From contig NZ_JASHHX010000019.1 of NCBI RefSeq assembly GCF_030056575.1, positions 1-64,000 of the forward strand: 64,000 nucleotides of DNA, given 5' to 3'. The position numbers and the translations under genes are program-made. The stretch comes from Rhodoblastus sp. 17X3. GTDB lineage: Bacteria > Pseudomonadota > Alphaproteobacteria > Rhizobiales > Beijerinckiaceae. Positions 5,060-64,000 of this stretch are shown here, in pieces. Position 1 is the stretch's first letter, and each line of letters opens with the position of its first letter. The notes below the pieces were generated by a model. The model saw only the letters and a list, made by a program, of their open reading frames with translations, made no database searches and was not told where the DNA came from.

Positions 5060-5657
5060 TTCGTCGGAAGGTCACGCTTAATTTGTCGCCCGGCATTTCG
5101 ACAATGGCCGGCGCGGAAAAGTCGTTGGCGCGCGCCGCCGCCGTGATTGCGGCCAGATCGCGCAATCCCCATTCCGGATTTTGCGCGCGCAGTCTGGCGT
5201 CAAAAGCGAGATTGCTCCTTGCTGTCTCGACGCCCTCGCGCAGAAGCGGCCCATAGAGATAAAGCGCGCCGCCTGGCTGGAGCAAGTCATAAGCCTGATA
5301 AAACAGGCCTTCTGTCGCAGCCCAGGGCGCGACGTGGAGCATGTCGATGCAGAGGATGGCGTCGGCCCAGCACACCGGCCGAGGCGGGCGCGCGGCGTCG
5401 AGGGCGACGGCGGCATGGACGTTCTGCAAGCGCCTCCTGGCCGCCCATGCGTCGATGCTCGCCCGCGCGTTCAGATCAATGTCGGATGGTTGAAAAGTCA
5501 GGCGCGGAAGGGCGGCGGCGAAATGGGCGGCATGTTCGCCGGAGCCGCTGCCGATTTCGAGCACGAGCCCTCTTGTCGGCAATATGCCGCGCAGAACCTC
5601 GAGAATGGCGTCGCGATTGCGGGCGACGGCGGGAGCATGGAGGCGGGGATCGATCAT
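5055..5657 (-). CDS. DUF938-family SAM-dependent methyltransferase
   Basis: The 200-residue protein matches the DUF938 family of predicted class I methyltransferases. It begins with R-N-R-D-A-I-L-E-V-L. The SAM loop LVLEIGSGSGEHAAHFA lies near residues 31-47, followed by FQPSDIDLN, INMIH-type ILCIDMLHVAPW and GGALYLYGPL. Members are stand-alone cytosolic proteins of about 200 residues with no agreed substrate. It ends next to the hairpin array, convergent with the glycosyltransferase. Confidence 0.85.
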   Translation of the reverse strand: MIDPRLHAPAVARNRDAILEVLRGILPTRGLVLEIGSGSGEHAAHFAAALPRLTFQPSDIDLNARASIDAWAARRRLQNVHAAVALDAARPPRPVCWADAILCIDMLHVAPWAATEGLFYQAYDLLQPGGALYLYGPLLREGVETARSNLAFDARLRAQNPEWGLRDLAAITAAARANDFSAPAIVEMPGDKLSVTFRRI

Positions 5658-7971: not shown

Positions 7972-9651
7972 ATGAACGAGATCGCATCCCAACTCGCCGC
8001 TTTCGCCAGCCAATCGAACGCCTGGCCGTTCGAGGAGGCGAAGAAGCTCGTGGCCAGGGTGGAGCGCACCGGGCAGAAACAAGTGCTGTTCGAAACCGGC
8101 TACGGCCCGTCGGGCCTGCCCCATATCGGAACCTTCGGCGAGGTCGCGCGCACGACCATGGTGCGCCACGCCTTCGAGACGCTGACCGAAGGCCGGATCG
8201 CCACGCGCCTTCTGGCCTTTTCCGACGATCTCGACGGCTTGCGCAAGGTGCCGGAAAACATTCCCAACAAGGAGCTGGTCGGCGCGCATCTCGGCAAGCC
8301 GCTGACCCAGGTGCCGGACCCGTTCGGCGAATATCCGAGCTTCGGCGAACACAATAACGCGCGGCTGCGCGCCTTTCTCGACGCCTTCGGCTTCGACTAT
8401 GAATTCGCCTCCGCCACGCAATATTACCAGTCCGGTCGATTCGACGCGACGCTGCTGAAAATGCTCGCGCGCTATGACGCGATCCAGGAAATCATGCTGC
8501 CCTCGCTGCGGGCCGAGCGCGCCGCTTCCTACGCGCCCTTCCTGCCGATCCATCCGCGGACTGGCCATGTGATGCAGGTTCCGCTCGACGAAATCGACGT
8601 CGCGCGCGGCCTTGTCGCGTGGCGCGATGCCGAGACCGGCGAGCGTTTCGAGACGCCCGTGACGGGCGGCCATTGCAAGCTGCAATGGAAGCCGGACTGG
8701 GCGATGCGCTGGTGCGCGCTCGGCGTCGATTACGAAATGGCCGGCAAGGACCTGATCGATTCCGTCAAGCTGTCGAGCGAGATCGCCCGCGCGCTGGATG
8801 GCGCGCCGCCGGAAGGTTTTAATTACGAGCTGTTCCTCGACGAGAACGGCCAGAAGATCTCGAAGTCCAAGGGCAATGGCTTGACCATTGACGAATGGCT
8901 GCGCTACGCCAGCCCGGAATCGTTGGCCTTCTTCATGTATTGGAAGCCGCGCGAGGCGAAGCGGCTCTATTTCGACGTCATTCCCAAGGCGGTGGACGAA
9001 TATCTCGCCTTCCTCGACGCTTATCCGCGTCAGGACTGGAAATTGCGGCTGGGCAATCCGGCCTGGCATATCCATGCCGGCGATCCGCCGCCGCCCGAAT
9101 TCATCCACCATGGCGCGGACGCCAAGGGTGCGGCTATTTCGTTCGGCATGCTGCTGAATCTTGCAGCCGTGGCCAATAGCGAGGACCCTGCCGTGCTATG
9201 GGGCTTCCTGCGCCGTTACGCGCCCGAGGCGACGCCGGAGAAATTCCCGCGCCTCGACCGCATGATCCATTACGCCGTGGTTTATTTCCGCGATTTCGTG
9301 CGGCCCAAAAAGGTCTATCGCGCCGCCGACGAGGTGGAGCGCGAGGCGCTGGAGCAGCTTTCTACGGCTCTCGCGGCCCTGCCGCCGGGGCCGAGCGCCG
9401 AAGACGTCCAGACCTTGCTCTATGACGTGGCGCGTCCGATCCCGCGCTACCAGAATTTCGCCGCCAAGGGCGCGACGCCGGAAAAGCCGGGCGTGTCGAA
9501 CGACTGGTTCGCCATGCTCTATCAGATCCTTCTCGGCGAGGCGCGCGGCCCGCGCTTCGGCTCCTTCGTGGCGCTTTACGGCGTGGACAATACGCGCGCC
9601 TTGATAGCCGACGCGCTGGCCGGCAAGTTTTTGGCCGCCGCCCCCGTCTGA
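7972..9651 (+). CDS. lysS: Lysyl-tRNA synthetase, class I
   Basis: The 559-residue cytosolic enzyme charges tRNA-Lys with lysine. It is the class I (archaeal-type) form, also called LysK, and not the common class II enzyme. The HIGH motif is HIGT at residues 51-54 in [13 protein letters not shown]. The KMSKS motif is KISKS near 295-299, followed by GNG. The C-terminal helical anticodon-binding part fills the last 200 residues. ATG 7972 fits the family start and has GGCGGGG upstream; ATG 7951 is an alternative. Its last 76 bases overlap the end of the convergent glycosyltransferase gene. Confidence 0.95.
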
Positions 9652-11513
9652 GGGGCGTCCGCAGCTTGAGGGATTTGCGGGCGGGGAAGATGGGCGGTCT
9701 TGTTCCAGACGAAGGGCTTGCGCGTCCATTCCCATAGCGCCAGCCATGAGGCGAGGCTCAGCAAGGCGAAATAGACCGGCGCGAGCAGGAGGTGCGGATT
9801 GGCCTTCATGCCGCGCCGTTTCATGCCGAGCAGCGGCGGCAGGATAAAGGCCAGCGTCCCGAACAGAGCGATGACGAGGCTGAAGCTCGCCACGGTGAAC
9901 TGTTCGAAAGTCTGCGGCGCCAGCAGCTCTCCCGAAAGCGCATCCTGGGCGAGGCGCAGGCCGTAGAGGGGTCCAAATAATGGCCCCGCCAGCAGGCTCG
10001 ACATGGCGCAAAGCGCGGCGAAGGTCTGGACGGCGCCGATCTCGCGGTAATGGCGGCGCGGCGTGCGCAGGAAGACCGCCAGCGTCTGCATCCAGCCCTT
10101 CATCCAGCGCGATCGCTGGCCCATCCAATTGTTCAGTTCCGTCGGGGCGTCCTCATAAGTGGTGGCCTCGATCGCGCCGACGAGATAGCCGAAGCGGGCG
10201 AAGCGCAGGCCAAGATCGGCGTCCTCGGTGACATTCCAGGCGTCCCAGCCGACGACGCGGCGCAGGATGTCGGTGCGGAAATGATTGGAGGTGCCTCCGA
10301 GCGGCATCGGCAGGCCGAGCGCGGCGAGGCCCGGATTGAGGACGTCGAACAAAGCCGCATAGCCGATGGCGAAGAAATAGGGCAGCCAGCCCTCATGGCC
10401 GTTGTCGATGGCGAGCCGGGCCTGCAGGCAGGCGAGGCGCGGCCCGGCGGCGGCGAAAGCCGCGGCGGCCAGCCTCAATTGCCCCGGCTCGGGCCGGTCC
10501 TCGGCGTCGAAAATGGCGAGCAGCCGCCCCCGCGCCAGCGGCAGGGCGACATTGAGCGCGCGCGGCTTGGTGCGCGGCGCGCCGGGTGGGGCGACGACGA
10601 TCTCGACATAGGCCGGCGGCGCGGCGGCGCGCAGGGCTTCGGCGGTTTCCAGATCGTCGTGCTCCAGCACGATTTTCACGTCGAGCTTGGCGGCGGGATA
10701 GTCGATCGCCTTGAGCGCGGCCAGCAATTGCGCCGCGACGCTGGCCTCGCGATACATCGGCACGATGATCGAATAGACCGGCAGGGCGCGTTCGCTCAGG
10801 CTCGGCCGCGCGCCGCGCTGCGGCTTCAGGCTGGCGGCGAAGGCGCAGAGGCGGATGTAGATCCCGCCCAGGAACAGAATGGAGAGCAGGGGCGAGGCGA
10901 CGGCGAGCAGCGCCGGGGACAAGGCCGAAAGCCCCGCGATCACGGCGAGGCAGAGGACGACGCTGAAAAGATTGCTCCAGCGCAATTGCGGCGCATTGGC
11001 GCTGAGGCGGGAATCGGCGCGCGAGAGGGCGAAGCTGGCGTCGTCGGAAAGCGCGCGCCGGCCCTTGGCGCGAACGAGCGCGGAAAAGATTTTTGGCGCG
11101 CAGATTGCGATCCGCCGTCCGCCTTGCGCGCCCAGGGCGAGGAGGGCGCGGACCTGCGCCCCGCGCGGCGCCATCAGCCAGTCGAACTCCTCAAGCGCCG
11201 GATCGGCGCGGGCGACGCTGGCGCGCAAGGCGGCGCGATAATCGAAGCCCGGCGCGAGCGAGGTCGCGCGTTCGACATAGGGGCAGTTGAGCCGCCGGGC
11301 GAGGGCCGAGTAATAGAGGGCCTCCTCGACCAGCCCCTCGGCGATCAGGACCTCGTCGGCGCCGACGCCAAGTTCGCGGGCCCGCCGCGCCGCGTAAGCC
11401 AGAACGGAGGAATCGACGCCAGCGGCCGCGAGAAAGGCGATTTCGGGAAGCGATTCAGCGCCATCGGCGGGTTCAAAACTCCCTCCGCTGCGGTATAAAG
11501 AGCCAGAACTCAT
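9576..11513 (-). CDS. Membrane GT2 glycosyltransferase with N-terminal MshEN-like domain
   Basis: The 645-residue protein has three parts. Residues about 25-170 resemble the N-terminal domain of type II secretion ATPases ([21 protein letters not shown]), which in other proteins binds cyclic di-GMP. Membrane segments follow. A processive-type GT2 domain then shows [11 protein letters not shown], the DAED acidic motif, VTEDADLG and QRSRWMKGW, the D/DxD/TED/QxxRW set of cellulose- and hyaluronan-type synthases. Further membrane helices end the protein. It probably makes an exported polysaccharide under c-di-GMP control, which is inference. ATG 11513 is used without a clear ribosome site; the frame is open to 11771. 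The start shares CATG with the divergent gene and the tail overlaps lysS. Confidence 0.85.
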
Positions 11514-12450
11514 GAGCGGATCGGAACGGGACTTGACCACGCGCGGGCGCAATTTCTTTTTTCGACAAGCAGGGTTCTTTATCCGACACTTCAAGGTCAA
11601 GGCCAAGCTATTTTGGCTCTGCCGTTGGTCTCTGGCGGTTTTGCAACTTGCCGCTTTCCCGGCCCAGGCCGCGGGGCAGGGACCGGACGTCTTCCTGCCG
11701 AGCCTGTTCGATCCCCATAACCGTCCCGCGGCGCCCGGTCCCGACGCGCCAAAGCAGATCCGCTTCCTCACATCCGACGATTATCCGCCCTTCGAATTCC
11801 TGAACGCCGACGGGGCGCTGGCGGGCTTCAATATCGACCTCGCGCGCGCCATCTGCGCGGAATTGAAGGTCAACTGCACGATTCAGCCGCGCCGCTGGGA
11901 CAATCTGCTCGATGCGCTCGAAGCGAAAGAGGGCGACGCTATCGTCGCCTCGCTGCGCGAGACGCCGGCGATCCGGGCGCGGGTCAGTTTCACCGCGCCT
12001 TATTACCTCACGCCCGCCCGTTTCGTGTCGCTCGCCCGCGCGAAGGAGTTTGACGCCCGGCCCGAGGGCTTGCGGCAGGCGACGATCGGCGTCGAGGCGG
12101 GCGGCGCGCATGAGGCCTATCTGAAGGTCTTTTTCGCCCGCTCCACGATCCGGAGCTTCCCCGACCGCGCCGCGATGATGGCGGCCTTGCGCGACAAGAG
12201 CATCGATCTCGCCTTCGGGGACGCGGTCAGCCTCGCGCTATGGATGAATGATCCGCGCTCCGGCGACTGTTGCCGGTTCCAGGGCGGGCCTTATCTCGAA
12301 CCTGCTTTTTTTGGCGAGGGCGTCGGCATCGCCCTGCGGCCCGACGACGATACCCTGAGGCGCAGCCTCAACTGGGCGCTGCAAAGCCTCGACGAGCGCG
12401 GCGCGCTGACCGAGCTTTATCTGAAATATTTTCCGATCGGCTTTTACTGA
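11512..12450 (+). CDS. Periplasmic solute-binding protein, family 3 type
   Basis: The 312-residue protein has an unusually long basic N-terminus, then a hydrophobic signal segment (LAVLQLAAFPAQAAG), so it is exported. The mature part has the amino-acid-binding fold of SBP family 3: IRFLTSDDYPPFEFLNADG, LAGFNIDLARAICAEL, a lobe-crossing VSFTAPYYLTPARFVS, and a C-terminal WALQSLDERGALTELYLKYF. No ABC permease or ATPase lies next to it. It may serve a distant transporter or be an orphan receptor. The ATG at 11512 overlaps the divergent gene's start; a later start nearer the signal segment is possible. It converges on and overlaps the SCO1 gene by seven bases. Confidence 0.85.
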   Translation: MSGSERDLTTRGRNFFFRQAGFFIRHFKVKAKLFWLCRWSLAVLQLAAFPAQAAGQGPDVFLPSLFDPHNRPAAPGPDAPKQIRFLTSDDYPPFEFLNADGALAGFNIDLARAICAELKVNCTIQPRRWDNLLDALEAKEGDAIVASLRETPAIRARVSFTAPYYLTPARFVSLARAKEFDARPEGLRQATIGVEAGGAHEAYLKVFFARSTIRSFPDRAAMMAALRDKSIDLAFGDAVSLALWMNDPRSGDCCRFQGGPYLEPAFFGEGVGIALRPDDDTLRRSLNWALQSLDERGALTELYLKYFPIGFY

Positions 12451-57537: not shown

Positions 57538-58470
57538 TCAGAAAATCTCACTTGAACCATTGGCGTTGAATCGAACTGCCCGACCTACCCTTGCATAAAC
57601 TGTAGAGGTCGAAGCAAACCGGCCGCGGAGCCGTTGGGCGTGTGTGATGTCGAGAAGAGTAAAGGTGGCCGTCTGTGCGGATGCCTCTGCTGAAAGGCCT
57701 GCGCCTATCATCAGCCCGCCGACATCGGCCAGAAAGAAGCGGTCATGAAAGTCCTCGCCTCCCGCGATTTCGGACCACTCATAGAGTTCAAGGCGATAGC
57801 CGGGCGGGAGAATTCCGTTGACCCGAGCACCTGCATCCCGCGCAAGAATTTCTGCTGGCGGCCGCGAAGGGTGCGACCGAAAATGCACCCTGATAACTTT
57901 CGGATTCGACGAAGCCCTAGCAAGCTTCCCGAATAAGGATGCTAAGGGGCCGATGTAGTCGCCCACTCCAGCCCGCAAATCGAAAAACGGATCTACAATG
58001 TCGATTTCTCGGGCGGCCAACGCGAGCAAAAGCAAGGCCCCAGAAATATCGGCGGCGCTTCTTGGGATATCTCGACTTATCGGCGCATTGAAGAGTGGGT
58101 GGTCTTCGGAGCAGTCGCTTGGCGCTAAGGCCTGAGCGGAGCCAGTTGCGCCTTCCCGGCAGATTATGGCGCGGAACGCCCTGATGCCGTGTTCGCGCAC
58201 GGCGTTCGCAATCCAGTCCGCGTCGTGGTTATACGTTCGATTAAAATCGACAATTGCGTGCTTGGTGCGATGCAGACGGTCGATGATGCTAGCCATCCGA
58301 ACATCGGGAATACCTGCGGCTTTTGCCGACTCAATAACTTTTTTTTCCCATTTGTTTGGAAATCGCGAGATCAATCTGCCTTTGTCAGAACCGAACTTCT
58401 CGATCAAATAGCGGAATGTGTTCCAATCTGCACCGATAGCTGCAGGTTCGACGGCGTATTCCGAGAGCAT
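57538..58470 (-). CDS. PLD-like protein in the type I RM operon
   Basis: The 310-residue protein has an N-terminal helical part with NKWEKKVIESAKAAG and LHRTKHAIVDFNRTYNHD. A C-terminal PLD-like half holds IDIVDPFFD and FHDRFFLADVGGLMIGAGLS near residues 245-265, an H-x-R variant of the PLD H-x-K motif. A single motif suggests a dimeric active site or an inactive fold. Its ATG overlaps the stop of the AAA ATPase gene by one base (TGATG), so it is coupled to it. The function is inferred to be an effector or partner of the ATPase. Confidence 0.7.
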   Translation of the reverse strand: MLSEYAVEPAAIGADWNTFRYLIEKFGSDKGRLISRFPNKWEKKVIESAKAAGIPDVRMASIIDRLHRTKHAIVDFNRTYNHDADWIANAVREHGIRAFRAIICREGATGSAQALAPSDCSEDHPLFNAPISRDIPRSAADISGALLLLALAAREIDIVDPFFDLRAGVGDYIGPLASLFGKLARASSNPKVIRVHFRSHPSRPPAEILARDAGARVNGILPPGYRLELYEWSEIAGGEDFHDRFFLADVGGLMIGAGLSAEASAQTATFTLLDITHAQRLRGRFASTSTVYARVGRAVRFNANGSSEIF

Positions 58471-60269
58471 CAGAACAGCTCCTCGGCTCGTTCGTCGAAA
58501 AATCCCCGAGGCCAGCGATCGAGGAATTCTCCTTCTTCATCGACGCGGAGCGAATGAAAACGAACTCCCTCGGTGGAGCCCTCAACATAGATGACGGCGA
58601 GATCGTTCGGTTCTATTGCTTCTGCGCCAGGCGGGAGATCGTTCTCATGCTTTTCGCGAATACGGCGTAGCAGGCGCAGCATGATGTGCTCGCTGTGGGT
58701 TTCGACGAGCAGCGACTTCCCAGATCCGAAGCCGAAACCATCGCCCTTGATGGCTTTAATGAACAGGTCGCCCATGCCGACCTGAATGGCGGGATGAATG
58801 TGCAGTTCCGGCTGTTCGATCGCCAAGAGTCCTTGCGCGTCGCGTAGGCAGCCGACAACGACGGGCACCATTTGCGACACTCCGACACCGACATCACTAG
58901 GCGCAACCAAAATCCCGCGCTCGACGTCCTTCAGGCCGATTTCGGACCTTGCTTTTAGAGAGGCGTAAATCTCCTCAAGCTCTCCCAAATCGTCCTCTTC
59001 CAGACCTTTTTGAAATAGCAGGTGGAAAGCGCTCGGGACTGGAACTTCCTTGAATTCCATTTTTTCAAGGCGATAGCCGGTCCGCAGGCGGTCTTCAGAT
59101 GAAAGCCACGCATTGACCTCATTCAGCAGGTCGTCTTTCGAGGCCGTATAGAGCAAGTCCCATGCGGCCAGGCCTTGAGCCCAACGATTTTCATCGGGCG
59201 AAAGGCGCGGGCGATAATTCCGGGTCGGAATTTCACGCAGGGGCCCGATATAGGTCATCGTGCTGAGGTAGTCTCGGACGATCCGCATCGGTCCGAGCAT
59301 GAGTTCGTCGAGCAGGGACGTGAGGCCTGATCGGCGTCGTTTTTCCATTTCAAACGTATTGGCAGCCGCAAGCTGACCCTTCTCGTTCAGGTTGAGATTG
59401 AGAACCGCCGAACCGACGCGCAAATTCGTAGAAGTCGTATCGAATTCGACGAGGTCGGGCTTCAGTGTTCGATCCAGATTCGGCAGAGCGCCTACGCTGG
59501 TTTCAACGGCGATGCGGAAGTCGGATGTGTTATTGCCTGCTGCGTCGGCTGAAAGTTCTCGCGAAAGCTCCCAAATCTCGCTGCCGAGCGGCGTCGAGAA
59601 CGGATCCCCGACGAAGCCCGCCGCGTCGGTTTCGTCCTGGGCTGATGATGTTTCAACATCCGATTCGAGATCGCTATCGGGATCGGTTATCGGCCGCAGG
59701 AGAGGATGAGCAAAATTGAACGCGGTGAGTTGCGCGCGGCCCTGTTGCGGCGGTGAATGAAATTCGGCGATCGGTCCGCCGTCGAGGTCCACGAGTACCT
59801 TGGCGACATAAGGACTTTGGAGCGCATGGCTCCAGCGGATTTCGACGCCGAGGGCGACTTCCTGAACTACGGCGTATTCCTTAAGTTCGGTGTTTTCTCC
59901 CACGAGGTAGCGGATGCCGAGATTGCTGAAATCGGGGTCTCCAAGACTCCCGCCGGAATTTAGCGGCAACCATTCGCAGCCCTGATCATCTGAGACATCG
60001 ATGCAGACCTTGATTTTTATGGCGCGACTGAGATCGTGACCATGAACGAGGGTTGCGAACCCACCCAGATCGATCAGCCCGCCGGCGATGGTTTGATCAG
60101 GGTCGACGTTTCCGCGCTCAAGGATTTCGCGCAAATAGTGCAGCGACTGCAGGATTGTGCTCTTGCCAGCACTATTCGGGCCGAATAGCAGCGTGATCGG
60201 CTTGAGGTCGATCACCTGCGATATTCCTATTCCCTTGAAATTCTCAATCTCGATTTGGCTGAGGCGCAT
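58470..60269 (-). CDS. AAA ATPase of the DUF3696/OLD-like group in the type I RM operon
   Basis: The 599-residue protein has the ABC/SMC-like ATPase layout. LSQIEIENFKGIGISQVIDL and LLFGPNSAGKSTILQSLHYL (Walker A near 29-37) open the protein. DVGVGVSQMVPVVVG supplies a signature-like motif, LLAIEQPELHIHPAIQVGMG Walker B near 495, and LVETHSEHIMLRLLRRIRE the H-loop region. The C-terminal LAVIYVEGSTEGVRFHSLRV is typical of DUF3696-bearing proteins. It starts nine bases after hsdS and overlaps the PLD-like gene, so it is part of the RM operon. Related ATPases pair with nucleases in phage defence (for example OLD, Gabija and PARIS-like ATPases). Confidence 0.85.
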   Translation of the reverse strand: MRLSQIEIENFKGIGISQVIDLKPITLLFGPNSAGKSTILQSLHYLREILERGNVDPDQTIAGGLIDLGGFATLVHGHDLSRAIKIKVCIDVSDDQGCEWLPLNSGGSLGDPDFSNLGIRYLVGENTELKEYAVVQEVALGVEIRWSHALQSPYVAKVLVDLDGGPIAEFHSPPQQGRAQLTAFNFAHPLLRPITDPDSDLESDVETSSAQDETDAAGFVGDPFSTPLGSEIWELSRELSADAAGNNTSDFRIAVETSVGALPNLDRTLKPDLVEFDTTSTNLRVGSAVLNLNLNEKGQLAAANTFEMEKRRRSGLTSLLDELMLGPMRIVRDYLSTMTYIGPLREIPTRNYRPRLSPDENRWAQGLAAWDLLYTASKDDLLNEVNAWLSSEDRLRTGYRLEKMEFKEVPVPSAFHLLFQKGLEEDDLGELEEIYASLKARSEIGLKDVERGILVAPSDVGVGVSQMVPVVVGCLRDAQGLLAIEQPELHIHPAIQVGMGDLFIKAIKGDGFGFGSGKSLLVETHSEHIMLRLLRRIREKHENDLPPGAEAIEPNDLAVIYVEGSTEGVRFHSLRVDEEGEFLDRWPRGFFDERAEELF

Positions 60270-60278
60270 AACGGGACC

Positions 60279-61469
60279 TTATAATTGACCGCGAAAAGCG
60301 CGTTGGGAAAGAGCTAAAAACAGCGTCGAAGCTTCCTGCCAGGCCCCAACCATTGCGGCTCGGACAATGTTAAATTTATTCATGATGGCCAAAAATTCTT
60401 GCTGAGCGTCGGAATCAGGAACCGTGATTGGCACTTCACCCAGGCGATCGGTGTCTAGCCGTTTTGTACCGTGCGCTGCGGTCTCAACGCGTGCGAGTAT
60501 TGCTTCATGCTGCACTTTGAGGCACCAAAAGCCAAACATTGGATCGATATCATCGTCGAAGTGAATTGCCTTCATATCTTGGTTAATAGCGACTTCTCGG
60601 GCGGTCATCGCCATCGGAACCGTGTGAACGAGGATCATTCCTCTCACTACGATGAGTGGCGTGCCAGGGGGGATTTTTTTCAAACTCGTCTGCTCAAAAA
60701 CGGTTTCTGAAACATGATCTTCGGAATCAAGAATAACATCTACTTTCATATCTTTAGGGGAGACCCAAGGAAACGCGCCGGACCAATAATCGGTCTTTGC
60801 CTTGCTCGGTGTGCCACCCGAGGAGAAGCGCGCGCATGCGGATAGCGTCCTTTGTTCAAGCCCTTTCGGATTTGTGGTGGGATCACCAAACATGTCGAGA
60901 AAGACCGCCCGAAGGAAATCATCCGCGACGATGAGGGAATGTTCGCGTTTGCGGCGGATGGCGTCGGCTTTGTCGAGAATCGTCGCAATCCGGTTTTGCT
61001 CAGTGGGCGTCACGTCCGGAAGGAACACCTTATCCAAAAAGGTTCGGCCGATGCCGCCTACGGTAGCTCCTCGGAAGTCGCTCATGATCTGCTGTTGCCC
61101 GAGCGGCGATTGCAGGTAGCGAAATACAAATCTCGGGTCAGCTTTCTTTCGGCTCACCCCCAACCGAAAAACATGTTCGTTGATAGCGGCTTCCTCATAG
61201 GGAAAGTCGCCAGTGACGAAGCTGACCTTTCCAGTCGTTGCGCCGTCCTTAACGATCAGAATATCGTTAGGCTGTATTCGGCCCTTGGTCATCGAACGAA
61301 AAAAGCCATCGGGAATTCGCTTGTCCTTGGCGAAGTTGAACCCTCCGTCATCGGACAGATGTTCAGCTCCAAGGCTCGGAATCTCGCCAGCGCCCTCTTT
61401 GATGCCGCCCTTTGGCCGCGCGCCACTTTCGAGTTCGTCTACCCATGCTGAAAGAGGAACGGTTTTCAT
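60279..61469 (-). CDS. hsdS: Type I restriction-modification specificity subunit HsdS
   Basis: The 396-residue protein has the two-half layout of HsdS: two target-recognition domains, each followed by a coiled-coil spacer helix. The first half contains [20 protein letters not shown] and ends with [20 protein letters not shown] and [11 protein letters not shown]. The second has [20 protein letters not shown] and WVSPKDMK. It sets the DNA sequence recognised by both methylase and nuclease; the target cannot be read from sequence. Its ATG overlaps the HsdM stop by four bases (ATGA). Confidence 0.93.
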
Positions 61470-62989
61470 CCGAGCAACTCCTCAAGCTCGACGAGGTCCG
61501 TTGCGATGTTGTCGTTCAACTTCTTCATCCGGTCCAAAATGACCGCAGGCGCTTCGTATTCCTCGGCGACGTGCGGGCGAACCTGGTATCTGCTGAGAGA
61601 TAGGTCATAGTTTGCCTCGCGAATTTCCTTGGTCGACACAAAGAAGGCCTTTTGCGTCCGGTCCGTATCGCGCTTTGCGTCCCGGTTCCTCCATGCCGCC
61701 AAACAGCCCGGCAGATCGTTCGCCTCGATCGGGTCACGCTTGTCATCGAGTGAGAAGCCGTCTGCCTCCACGTCGAAGAAAAACACATCGTCGGTGCGCC
61801 CGCCTTTGGTGAAGACCAGAATGCCTGTTGAAACGCCCGCATATGGTTTGAACACCCCGCTCGGAAGCGAGATCACGGCTTCCAGCTGGTTGTGATCCAG
61901 CAACAGCCGTCTCAGCGCGACATGGGCGGTGGAGGAGCCGAACAACACGCCATCCGGCACAATTGTCGCCGACCGACCGCCGACCTTCAGCATGCGCAAA
62001 ATCAGCACAAGGAAGAGCAGTTCGGTCTTCTTGGTCTTCACCTGCCGCAACAGTGACGGGTGAACGTCCTCGAAATCGAGGCTCCCCTTGAAGGGAGGGT
62101 TGGCCAGGATGACATTGAAGCCTTCCGACGCCGCTTTCGGAAACCTGTCAGTGAAGCCAGTGCTCAACGTGTCCTGATAATGGATGTCGGGATCATCGAC
62201 GCCATGCAGCATCAGGTTCATGGCGGCTATGCGGAGCATCGTCGCGTCGAAATCAAACCCATGGAACATTCGACTCCGGATATGCTCGCGGTTCTCTTCC
62301 AACAGGTCGCCGGTGTAAATTTTCTCCACCTTGCCGGTTTCGGAATCGACCTCCTTCAGCACCCCCTCCGGCGAGGTGTACGTTTCCAGCAGATACTGCA
62401 TCGTCTGAACGAGGAAGCCGCCGGTGCCGCAGGCCGGATCGCCGATCACGTCCGTTGGCTTCGGTTCCAGCATATCGACCATCAACCGGATGATGTGGCG
62501 CGGCGTACGGAACTGGCCATTGATGCCAGCCGTCGTCAGCTTGCTGAGGAGATATTCATAGAGGTCGCCTTTTGCGTCGCCTTCGGTCAGCGGCAGCTGG
62601 TCGATCATGTTGACGGCTTTGACCAGAAGGCTCTGCTTCTGGATCATCAGTTGCGCGTCTTTCATGAATTCGGAAAAGGCGGCGCCGCTGGCCGAATCTT
62701 TCCTGAAATGCGGAAATACCTTGTCGCGCACCAAAGGCAGCATGGCGTCGGCGCCGAGATGGCGGAACTGCGACCAGCGCAGTTCCTGCTCATCATCTGA
62801 AAACCGACGCTGAAACTCTTTGCCGGTCCGCTTCAGCCGGTTCTCGTCGCGCGTCTCGTTAATATCGAGCAAACGCGCAAACATCAGGAACGTGATCTGC
62901 TCGATCACCGTCAGCGGGTTTGTAATCCCGCCCTGCCAGAATTCTGTCCAGAGCGCGTCTATCCGGCGCTTGAGGTCACCTGTAATCAC
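61466..62989 (-). CDS. hsdM: Type I restriction-modification DNA methyltransferase HsdM
   Basis: The 507-residue protein is an N6-adenine methyltransferase. The N-terminal HsdM helical domain starts [16 protein letters not shown]. The SAM-binding motif is DPACGTGGF near 182-190, and the catalytic motif is NPPF near 297-300 in [32 protein letters not shown] follows. It methylates host DNA with HsdS and forms the core of the restriction complex. It overlaps the hsdR stop and hsdS start by four bases each. Confidence 0.95.
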
Positions 62990-64000
62990 AGCTGTTCCGT
63001 CCTTTCAGGGGCTTCTTTCGGCTCTGCGCGCCCAGCTTGTGGGGGCACGAAGCCATCGAGGATTTGAAGAAGGTCGTCGACCTCATTTGGGTTCACGAAG
63101 ACGCCGTCGAGTCCGTCAGCGTCGACAACCGTGAACGGTTGGTCGTAAAGACGGTCGAGCGTGATCGATCCGTATCGCGAGATGTGATTCTGAAGCAGCC
63201 CAAGAAACCGCGTCTGCTTGGCGGTAAGCTTTGGGTGCTTGACTGCAAAATCGGCGAAGCGAGCTGCCACTGCTTCGGGGTCAAGACCGATAATAGATCG
63301 GATGGCAAATTCGAGCGGAACAGCCGTATCGCTGAAAAACTCCTGGAGAACGTCACGGTTGGCATTGGGGCTCTGCACCAGGACAAGCGAGACGAGGGCG
63401 TTGATGTCCGCTTCGGAAACCGCTTCACCGACGCGAATCTTTTTCAGCGTCGGATTGGTTTCGAAATGCCGCTTAAGTTCAGCCTCTACGATTTGCTGGT
63501 ACGCTTTCATGTCGACGGTCTTGAGGCTCGTCGTTCGACGCGCCGTCTGAACTCCCGCTAGCTCTTCGGTTACATCGATCACTTTAGCGGGCAGGGGCGT
63601 CGCTGCAGACCGATCGCGGTGGTGCATGATTTCGCGCAACGGCTGACGGACCACTTCAAGATCCGCCACAGTGACGCCGCTCCAGAAATCATCTGATTTG
63701 ACCCGCTTTATGACGTCCGCCTTCTCACGAACGGGGTTCAGGTGCATTTGCAACCCAGATATGCGGTCCAGAAGCTCAATCTTCAGATCGCCGACGGCTG
63801 CCGAATTCCGGAGTACGGCGACCTGAATGCGCGCGATCAGGAGATCGAGCGAGTAGGCGTCGCTGTATCCGCGGATGTTGCGCCATTGCATGAGCGGCGC
63901 GATGATTTGGCGGAGCATCTGGACCGTCGCCGGGGCGAATGCCTGGAGAGTAGCCGGCGCGGAAACGGCGCGTTTTTCGCGCCACTTTTCCCGAACTGAG
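62986..64000 (-). CDS. hsdR: Type I restriction endonuclease subunit HsdR, C-terminal part (cut by window edge)
   Basis: The frame runs in from the right edge ([17 protein letters not shown] just before [20 protein letters not shown]) and ends at 62986, giving 337 visible residues. This is the C-terminal HsdR region that contacts HsdM/HsdS, as in EcoEI-type R subunits: [59 protein letters not shown]. The nuclease and translocase motors lie beyond the window. An ATG at 63918 is internal and not the start. The stop overlaps the hsdM start by four bases. Confidence 0.9.

Follow-up and report, generated by a model that had tools for sequence, protein, structure and literature searches.

Few bacterial defences have been studied for as long as type I restriction, yet the genes carried in its operons are little charted. 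In the portions of the reports available to us, TgvAB is placed in a type I operon of Vibrio cholerae VPI-2, where it protects when the HsdR nuclease is inactivated (PMC11411939), DarTG2 in a type I operon under RptR on the RptR island of enteropathogenic Escherichia coli (EPEC) (PMC12255303), and PrrC in the EcoprrI type I operon, with PrrC and PARIS together termed guardians of restriction (PMC12707154); EVE-domain proteins are also found with type I operons (PMC7641849). Here we examine a stretch of 64,000 bases from Rhodoblastus sp. 17X3 (the window), which forms the first part of the 82,238-base contig C11 (NZ_JASHHX010000019.1) of a 4.18-Mb genome and in which hsdR, hsdM and hsdS are followed by genes for a DUF3696 ABC-type ATPase and a protein of 310 amino acids that we read as phospholipase D (PLD)-like. 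The likeness to the TgvAB, DarTG2 and PrrC operons, as far as the available text describes them, lies in a complete hsdRMS set with one or two extra defence genes and sometimes a dedicated regulator, whereas the extras differ: a GmrSD-like enzyme, a toxin–antitoxin pair and an anticodon nuclease there, and here, at the 3′ end, a DUF3696 ATPase with a PLD-like protein. Accessory modules within type I operons are of a known kind, and an ATPase–PLD module of this sort was not found in open-licence papers. The six-gene unit (the five genes and a regulator at their head) is unnamed among the open-licence paper matches listed, no open-licence paper was found for DUF3696 with restriction-modification (a newer name may exist), an hsd-linked PLD was not found in the text of Makarova 2012, and PADLOC of 2023 holds no named stand-alone system for the pair. 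The initial annotation, made from the sequence of the window, had not known the five-gene order as a named system, and these searches bear it out within PADLOC of 2023 and the listed matches.

We propose, with confidence evenly balanced, that the two final genes form an accessory anti-phage module within a WYL-regulated, EcoEI-like type I restriction-modification operon, in which the ATPase would gate a PLD-like effector and the two would act behind HsdRMS. The pair probably serves as a second weapon against phages that is built into the operon, and is not a chance neighbour; a defence role for it is likely.

The recurrence of the gene order supports this proposal. Relatives of the 310-amino-acid protein were placed at 38 sites (short or repeat fetches L001, L004, L010-L020, L043 and L052 were left out; L numbers are our locus handles), of which seven were untestable owing to contig ends or the lack of an ATPase match (L021, L022, L028, L031, L032, L049 and L051). 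Upstream of the ATPase gene and on the same strand, hsdS was present in 28 of the 31 testable places, so that homologues of the pair, which the initial annotation had suggested scoring for their place after hsdS, do not lie mostly away from restriction genes. A recurrence of this kind makes chance very unlikely, and on this count we rejected a chance neighbourhood of the pair and hsd; what is seen is a set of extra genes in one hsdRMS operon, conserved across genomes. Two of the positive places, L047 and L050, have fewer than 3,000 bases upstream of the ATPase gene, and without both the count is 26 of 29; if L049 (2,859 bases upstream, no hsdS) is counted as a miss, it becomes 28 of 32. Both hsdM and hsdR were also seen in 26 of the 28 hsdS-positive places, the contig ending in the other two. 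L005 and L027 are likely the same operon, and L023/L024, L009/L044 and L035/L041/L042 are near-copies; grouping by identity of the PLD-like protein at 90% deals with these, and the hsdS-linked groups then number 22 of 25 testable ones, with 13 of 16 at 70%. In Pseudomonadota, hsdS lies upstream in every testable place (25/25), the other three of the 28 being viral-collection contigs without a stated host. Among the hosts are Rhodobacter and kin, Rhizobium, Acidomonas, Vibrio, Azotobacter and Marinicella. The hsd gene order holds even where identity of the PLD-like protein falls to about 20% (L009, L046), and the viral-collection contigs L138 and L139 have the same order, WYL-R-M-S-ATPase-PLD. 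The junction within the pair is likewise conserved: a 1-base overlap occurs in 26 of the 32 places with both genes, five others range from a 4-base overlap to a 3-base gap, and L036 has a broken ATPase frame.

The proteins of the operon also diverge together. Pairwise identities across 22 loci (length filtering left 14 to 22 per gene; 999 permutations) gave correlations of 0.93 for HsdR-HsdM, 0.82 for HsdR-ATPase and 0.77 for HsdM-ATPase, and the PLD-like protein followed HsdR (0.74), HsdM (0.72) and the ATPase (0.79), with none of the 999 permutations as high in any of these cases. HsdS was uncorrelated with HsdR, HsdM, the ATPase and the PLD-like protein (0.03 to 0.15; 106 to 361 of 999 permutations as high), the value for HsdS-PLD being 0.03 (349/999), as would follow from exchange of target domains in a unit whose other parts move together. 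The WYL regulator correlated with HsdR (0.57, 1/999) and HsdM (0.41, 1/999), weakly with the PLD-like protein (0.26, 18/999) and not with the ATPase (0.00, 472/999). Within this unit, 17 of 21 comparisons with the window show lower identity for the PLD-like protein than for the ATPase, and four (L023-L026) show higher; against Methylocella, for example, the identities are 91% for HsdM, 67% for the ATPase and 38% for the PLD-like protein.

The element is rare: positives number one of 60 relatives, two of 397 genomes in the order and 12 of 398 in the phylum, with the window genome counted. Five plasmid records carry the PLD-like gene, and a rescan with the L039 protein gave the same five. Phage records held no match to the 310-amino-acid protein; viral contigs yielded three loci in six scans, of which the four with the L039, L040, L046 and L009 proteins found no relatives.

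The 310-amino-acid protein has no Pfam or PADLOC match (E up to 1) and no NCBIfam family; the NCBIfam scan covered the window protein, and when 28 family members were run against PADLOC and Pfam, the only hits were isolated strays, with E no lower than 0.019. No PDB relatives were found, the best hits being unrelated for both the single sequence (E 0.16) and the profile (E 0.6). We therefore compared the 28-member family by hhalign with 27 PLDc_2 domains, taken from 30 loci in a search of 41 genomes with L135-L137 left out. The C-terminal half aligned with a score of 26.9 over 125 columns (probability 42%), against at most 12.6 in 60 column shuffles, and the alignment places H242 on the catalytic histidine. 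The Cls-like subset alone scored 23.9 (shuffles 11.2), and control alignments with HsdS, WYL and HsdM scored -0.3, 1.2 and 6.2. R137, D160, H242, R244 and G258 are invariant in the 28 members, an H/R/R/D set with an added glycine. The PLD catalytic motif is HxK(x)4D; in the corresponding motif here, HDRFFLAD, H242 and R244 are kept in 28/28 members, the arginine standing for the HKD lysine in 28/28, and the aspartate at the third motif position is kept in 17/28, so that the canonical form is absent. The PLD-like call of the initial annotation thus stands as a moderate profile match of the C-terminal half and fails on the HKD lysine. In our reading the family has a PLD-like fold and an active site that is altered yet conserved; nuclease activity is likely, though short of certain.

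The ATPase carries GPNSAGKS (P-loop), VGVGVSQ (ABC-type signature), EQPELHIHP (Walker B) and ETHSEH (H-loop), and its family has invariant residues. A profile of 25 members matches PDB structures of OLD, GajA, PtuA, the retron Ec83 ATPase, SMC and Rad50. The C-terminus of the window ATPase is DUF3696 (25.1 bits, cut-off 22), and a Pfam scan at E up to 1 gave no TOPRIM match; of the suggestion that the ATPase is OLD-like, the ABC-type core is therefore upheld and the nuclease domain is not. A tree puts 16 PLD-partnered ATPases on one side of a branch and five DUF3696 ATPases with other partners on the other, with a branch support of 87/82, under the tool's star level, and several long branches.

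Several described systems share parts of this architecture. OLD, whose classes have been reviewed (PMC10568477, available in part), Gabija, Septu and PARIS resemble the operon in their ABC-type ATPase core, whereas here there is no TOPRIM match and no HNH or UvrD partner, and the partner is a PLD-like family unnamed in PADLOC. We rejected an OLD family nuclease on the missing TOPRIM (Pfam, E up to 1) and the C-terminal DUF3696, Gabija because the neighbours of the ATPase are HsdS and the PLD-like protein, the latter without a PADLOC match at E up to 1, and Septu because the PLD-like protein has no PtuB match among the 28 members scanned. Menshen (NsnABC), described in the available text as a DUF262 protein beside an OLD-like ATPase (PMC10952713), is alike in its DUF3696-type ATPase NsnB, which is the best PADLOC match of the window ATPase (1.9e-40, best stretch residues 453-598); the six operon proteins contain no DUF262, and membership was rejected. 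MADS likewise unites a methyltransferase, an S subunit and an AAA ATPase in one cluster, and it was set aside because the scores for MAD2, MAD3 and MAD5 fall far short of the curated cut-offs (27.3 of 420, 48.5 of 400 and 132.2 of 720 bits).

In the scheme we propose, HsdRMS would be the first line and cut unmethylated DNA, and the pair would come into play if such DNA persisted or restriction were blocked. A sensor and gate of the ABC/SMC type is the most likely role of the ATPase; it would respond to a phage anti-restriction protein, to stalled restriction complexes or to DNA ends, and most likely licenses the PLD-like effector. That effector is probably a nuclease whose HKD site has the HxR form and whose substrate is DNA or RNA. 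By analogy, the literature on PrrC, PARIS, TgvAB and DarTG2 makes this scheme plausible, short of proof for the present operon. What the analysis defines is a recurrent six-gene unit with an effector family unnamed in the libraries scanned; were the pair triggered by anti-restriction proteins, an ATPase–PLD type would join the guardians of restriction-modification.

Several observations weigh against this proposal. At 50% identity of the PLD-like protein only five of eight testable groups carry hsd, and the species-genome collection scan, which gave 20 loci, used patterns from four fairly close members and so favours close relatives. The PLD match itself is moderate (hhalign probability 42%) and no PDB relative was found; the Nuc-like PLDc_2 subset scores 4.0, under its shuffles (13.0), so that only part of the PLD superfamily is matched, and the control alignment with the ATPase scored 13.0, just over the best shuffle. 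The arginine in place of the HKD lysine, together with the aspartate kept in 17 of 28 members, means that nuclease activity may be absent. Joint transfer, and not function, may lie behind the co-divergence, and the correlations cannot tell the two apart. Finally, HsdM matched at E 1e-100 or better in 24 of 398 phylum genomes, nine of them PLD-positive, and at an HsdM identity of at least 64%, 8 of 14 are PLD-positive and 6 of 14 lack the pair, some of the negatives being short contigs (e.g., L095); hsd can therefore do without the pair. These same relatives speak against the pair as an aid to restriction itself, degrading DNA after HsdR cuts or remodelling HsdR-DNA complexes, and to our knowledge the type I enzymes studied so far require no such helper. 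We consider that role improbable, although the SMC/RecF-like core of the ATPase and the placement of its gene 9 bases after hsdS would suit it. Still less can be said for passive passengers on a mobile island, unrelated to defence: a tyrosine-integrase (integrase-family) gene upstream of the operon and the rarity of the element (the one positive among 60 relatives is the window genome itself, and the order has two in 397) count in its favour, but the gene order kept down to about 20% PLD-like identity, the invariant residues of both proteins and the WYL or CARF-type regulators make this very improbable.

A more serious contender, quite possible in our judgement though short of even, is an independent defence module with its own trigger and no sensing of HsdRMS, for which the hsd operon would be a regulated docking slot, shared for expression, that takes up mobile ATPase-effector modules. 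Among 18 hsd loci read from genomes in which no PLD-like gene was found, three carry another ATPase-led module in or just after the hsd operon: Gabija (L090:2669-13001; GajA 2.7e-217, GajB 2.8e-177), after further open reading frames downstream of hsdS in an operon whose HsdM shares 70% identity with that of the window; Septu, accompanied by a DUF3800 gene, between hsdS and hsdR (L098:1934-11020; PtuA 1.6e-128, PtuB 1.9e-64); and a PtuA/PDC-M01-like pair directly 3′ of hsdS (L105). As defence modules led by ATPases, these three also count for the accessory module that we propose. The protection by TgvAB with an inactivated HsdR nuclease, as given in the available text (PMC11411939), points the same way, as do the three testable places without hsd, each context being a single locus. 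On a plasmid of Deinococcus sp. AJ005 a prokaryotic Argonaute (pAgo) gene directly precedes the pair (L007:7117-8874 with 9001-11876; PADLOC pAgo 7.6e-30, with Pfam Piwi under its cut-off); in an Anaerolineaceae contig without hsd (L039:2416-6461) the pair begins 18 bases after a CARF-AAA-HTH regulator of RtcR type (2.3e-180), a sigma54 regulator; and an Acidobacteria contig (L040:4696-10906) has two tandem ATPase–PLD pairs, the first PLD-like protein strongly diverged. Regulators of this CARF type also head ATPase–PLD units at L008:1219-2691 and L009:1200-2684, and the hsd operons of Vibrio and Azotobacter have one where WYL would stand. Against independence stand the presence of hsdS at every testable place in Pseudomonadota and the tracking of HsdR and HsdM divergence by the PLD-like protein, more than a freely swapping slot would give. 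Twenty plasmid records match the ATPase. The PLD-like gene is present in all four that are covered to at least 80%, in favour of the module proposed above, and also in the Deinococcus record; in five others opened the ATPase partners are other or unrecognised, the gene next to the ATPase in L140 and L141 having tested as not PLD-like. Because of the pAgo, CARF and tandem contexts we also entertain, tentatively and with some doubt, that the pair is a general effector cassette plugged into varied self/non-self sensors (type I restriction in Pseudomonadota, pAgo in Deinococcus, a CARF sigma54 regulator of the cyclic-oligonucleotide type in one member of the Anaerolineaceae, with CARF and restriction combined in Vibrio and Azotobacter), in which case the PLD-like protein would represent a new family of effectors whose active site is of HxR form. 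If the pair does work with Argonaute and CARF regulators too, its effector would be shared across immune systems.

The operon is headed by a WYL regulator (P0002, 291 amino acids) whose gene lies just beyond the window and overlaps hsdR by 4 bases, its WYL match being PF13280 at 22.1 bits (cut-off 21.8). WYL regulators of the BrxR family are described alongside defence systems (PMC9122601); the likeness, which we count in favour of the proposed module, is a WYL regulator at the operon head, and P0002 is assigned here to the WYL domain only. An A+T-rich element, TATAAACTATA, is shared ahead of the WYL gene, in L002 at about 5280-5350 and in relatives, and in the window genome it lies within the inverted repeat TCCATATA-11-TATATGGA. 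At one mismatch or fewer it is present in 11 of 15 loci (15 of the 19 places with a WYL match, L005, L041, L042 and L139 being left out), with 0.03 loci expected under mononucleotide shuffling, a figure biased by the picking of the element by eye from the same sequences. We take TATAAACTATA as a lead only, to a possible WYL operator.

Genes of the operon within the window, in order of transcription, with their best domain evidence.
Gene or product	Position in window	Strand	Evidence
hsdR (C-terminal part, cut by the window end)	62986..63999	minus	EcoEI_R_C 6.2e-18 (Pfam)
hsdM, type I DNA methyltransferase, GTG start	61466..62989	minus	N6_Mtase 5.1e-59; PADLOC MTase_I 2.6e-176
hsdS, specificity subunit	60279..61469	minus	Methylase_S 1.3e-17; PADLOC Specificity_I 1.2e-63
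DUF3696 ABC-type ATPase, 599 aa	58470..60269	minus	AAA_15 2.1e-17; AAA_21 8.7e-16; DUF3696 2.1e-5
PLD-like protein, 310 aa	57538..58470	minus	C-terminal half profile-matched to PLDc_2 domains

All five reading frames are open where the initial annotation placed them, and the spacing it described is confirmed on the sequence: hsdR/hsdM and hsdM/hsdS overlap by 4 bases each, 9 bases separate hsdS from the ATPase gene, and the ATPase and PLD-like genes share 1 base (TGATG). Its view of five genes as one unit holds as to a single operon and needs extension to six, given the overlapping WYL gene. Catalytic-type motifs were found in HsdR, HsdM and the ATPase. The full hsdR on the contig encodes 1139 amino acids (L002:987-4406) with ResIII, HSDR_N and EcoEI_R_C domains, HsdM has DPACGTG and NPPF, and the helicase/nuclease motifs of HsdR, the N6-adenine motifs of HsdM and the target domains of HsdS together are those of an EcoEI-like type I system.

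Some related operons hold additional genes. An open reading frame of about 170-186 amino acids recurs near hsdS (L026:7561-8121, L033:7645-8205, L037:7561-8121, L029:6807-7325, L099:5884-6402); the form of about 186 amino acids sits between hsdS and the ATPase gene in L026, L033 and L037, with a similar one in L029. By eye it is GIY-YIG-like (LYVWRV...LYVGRTGD), and the L026 copy has no significant Pfam or PADLOC match. L045 has an RmuC-like gene between hsdR and hsdM, and the six-gene unit of L138 (12796-18917) shares its viral-collection contig with long open reading frames that may be phage tail genes. No tRNA genes were found in L002 and L003. Directly downstream of the operon lies a gene pair with PDDEXK and UvrD domains, which we take to be addBA.

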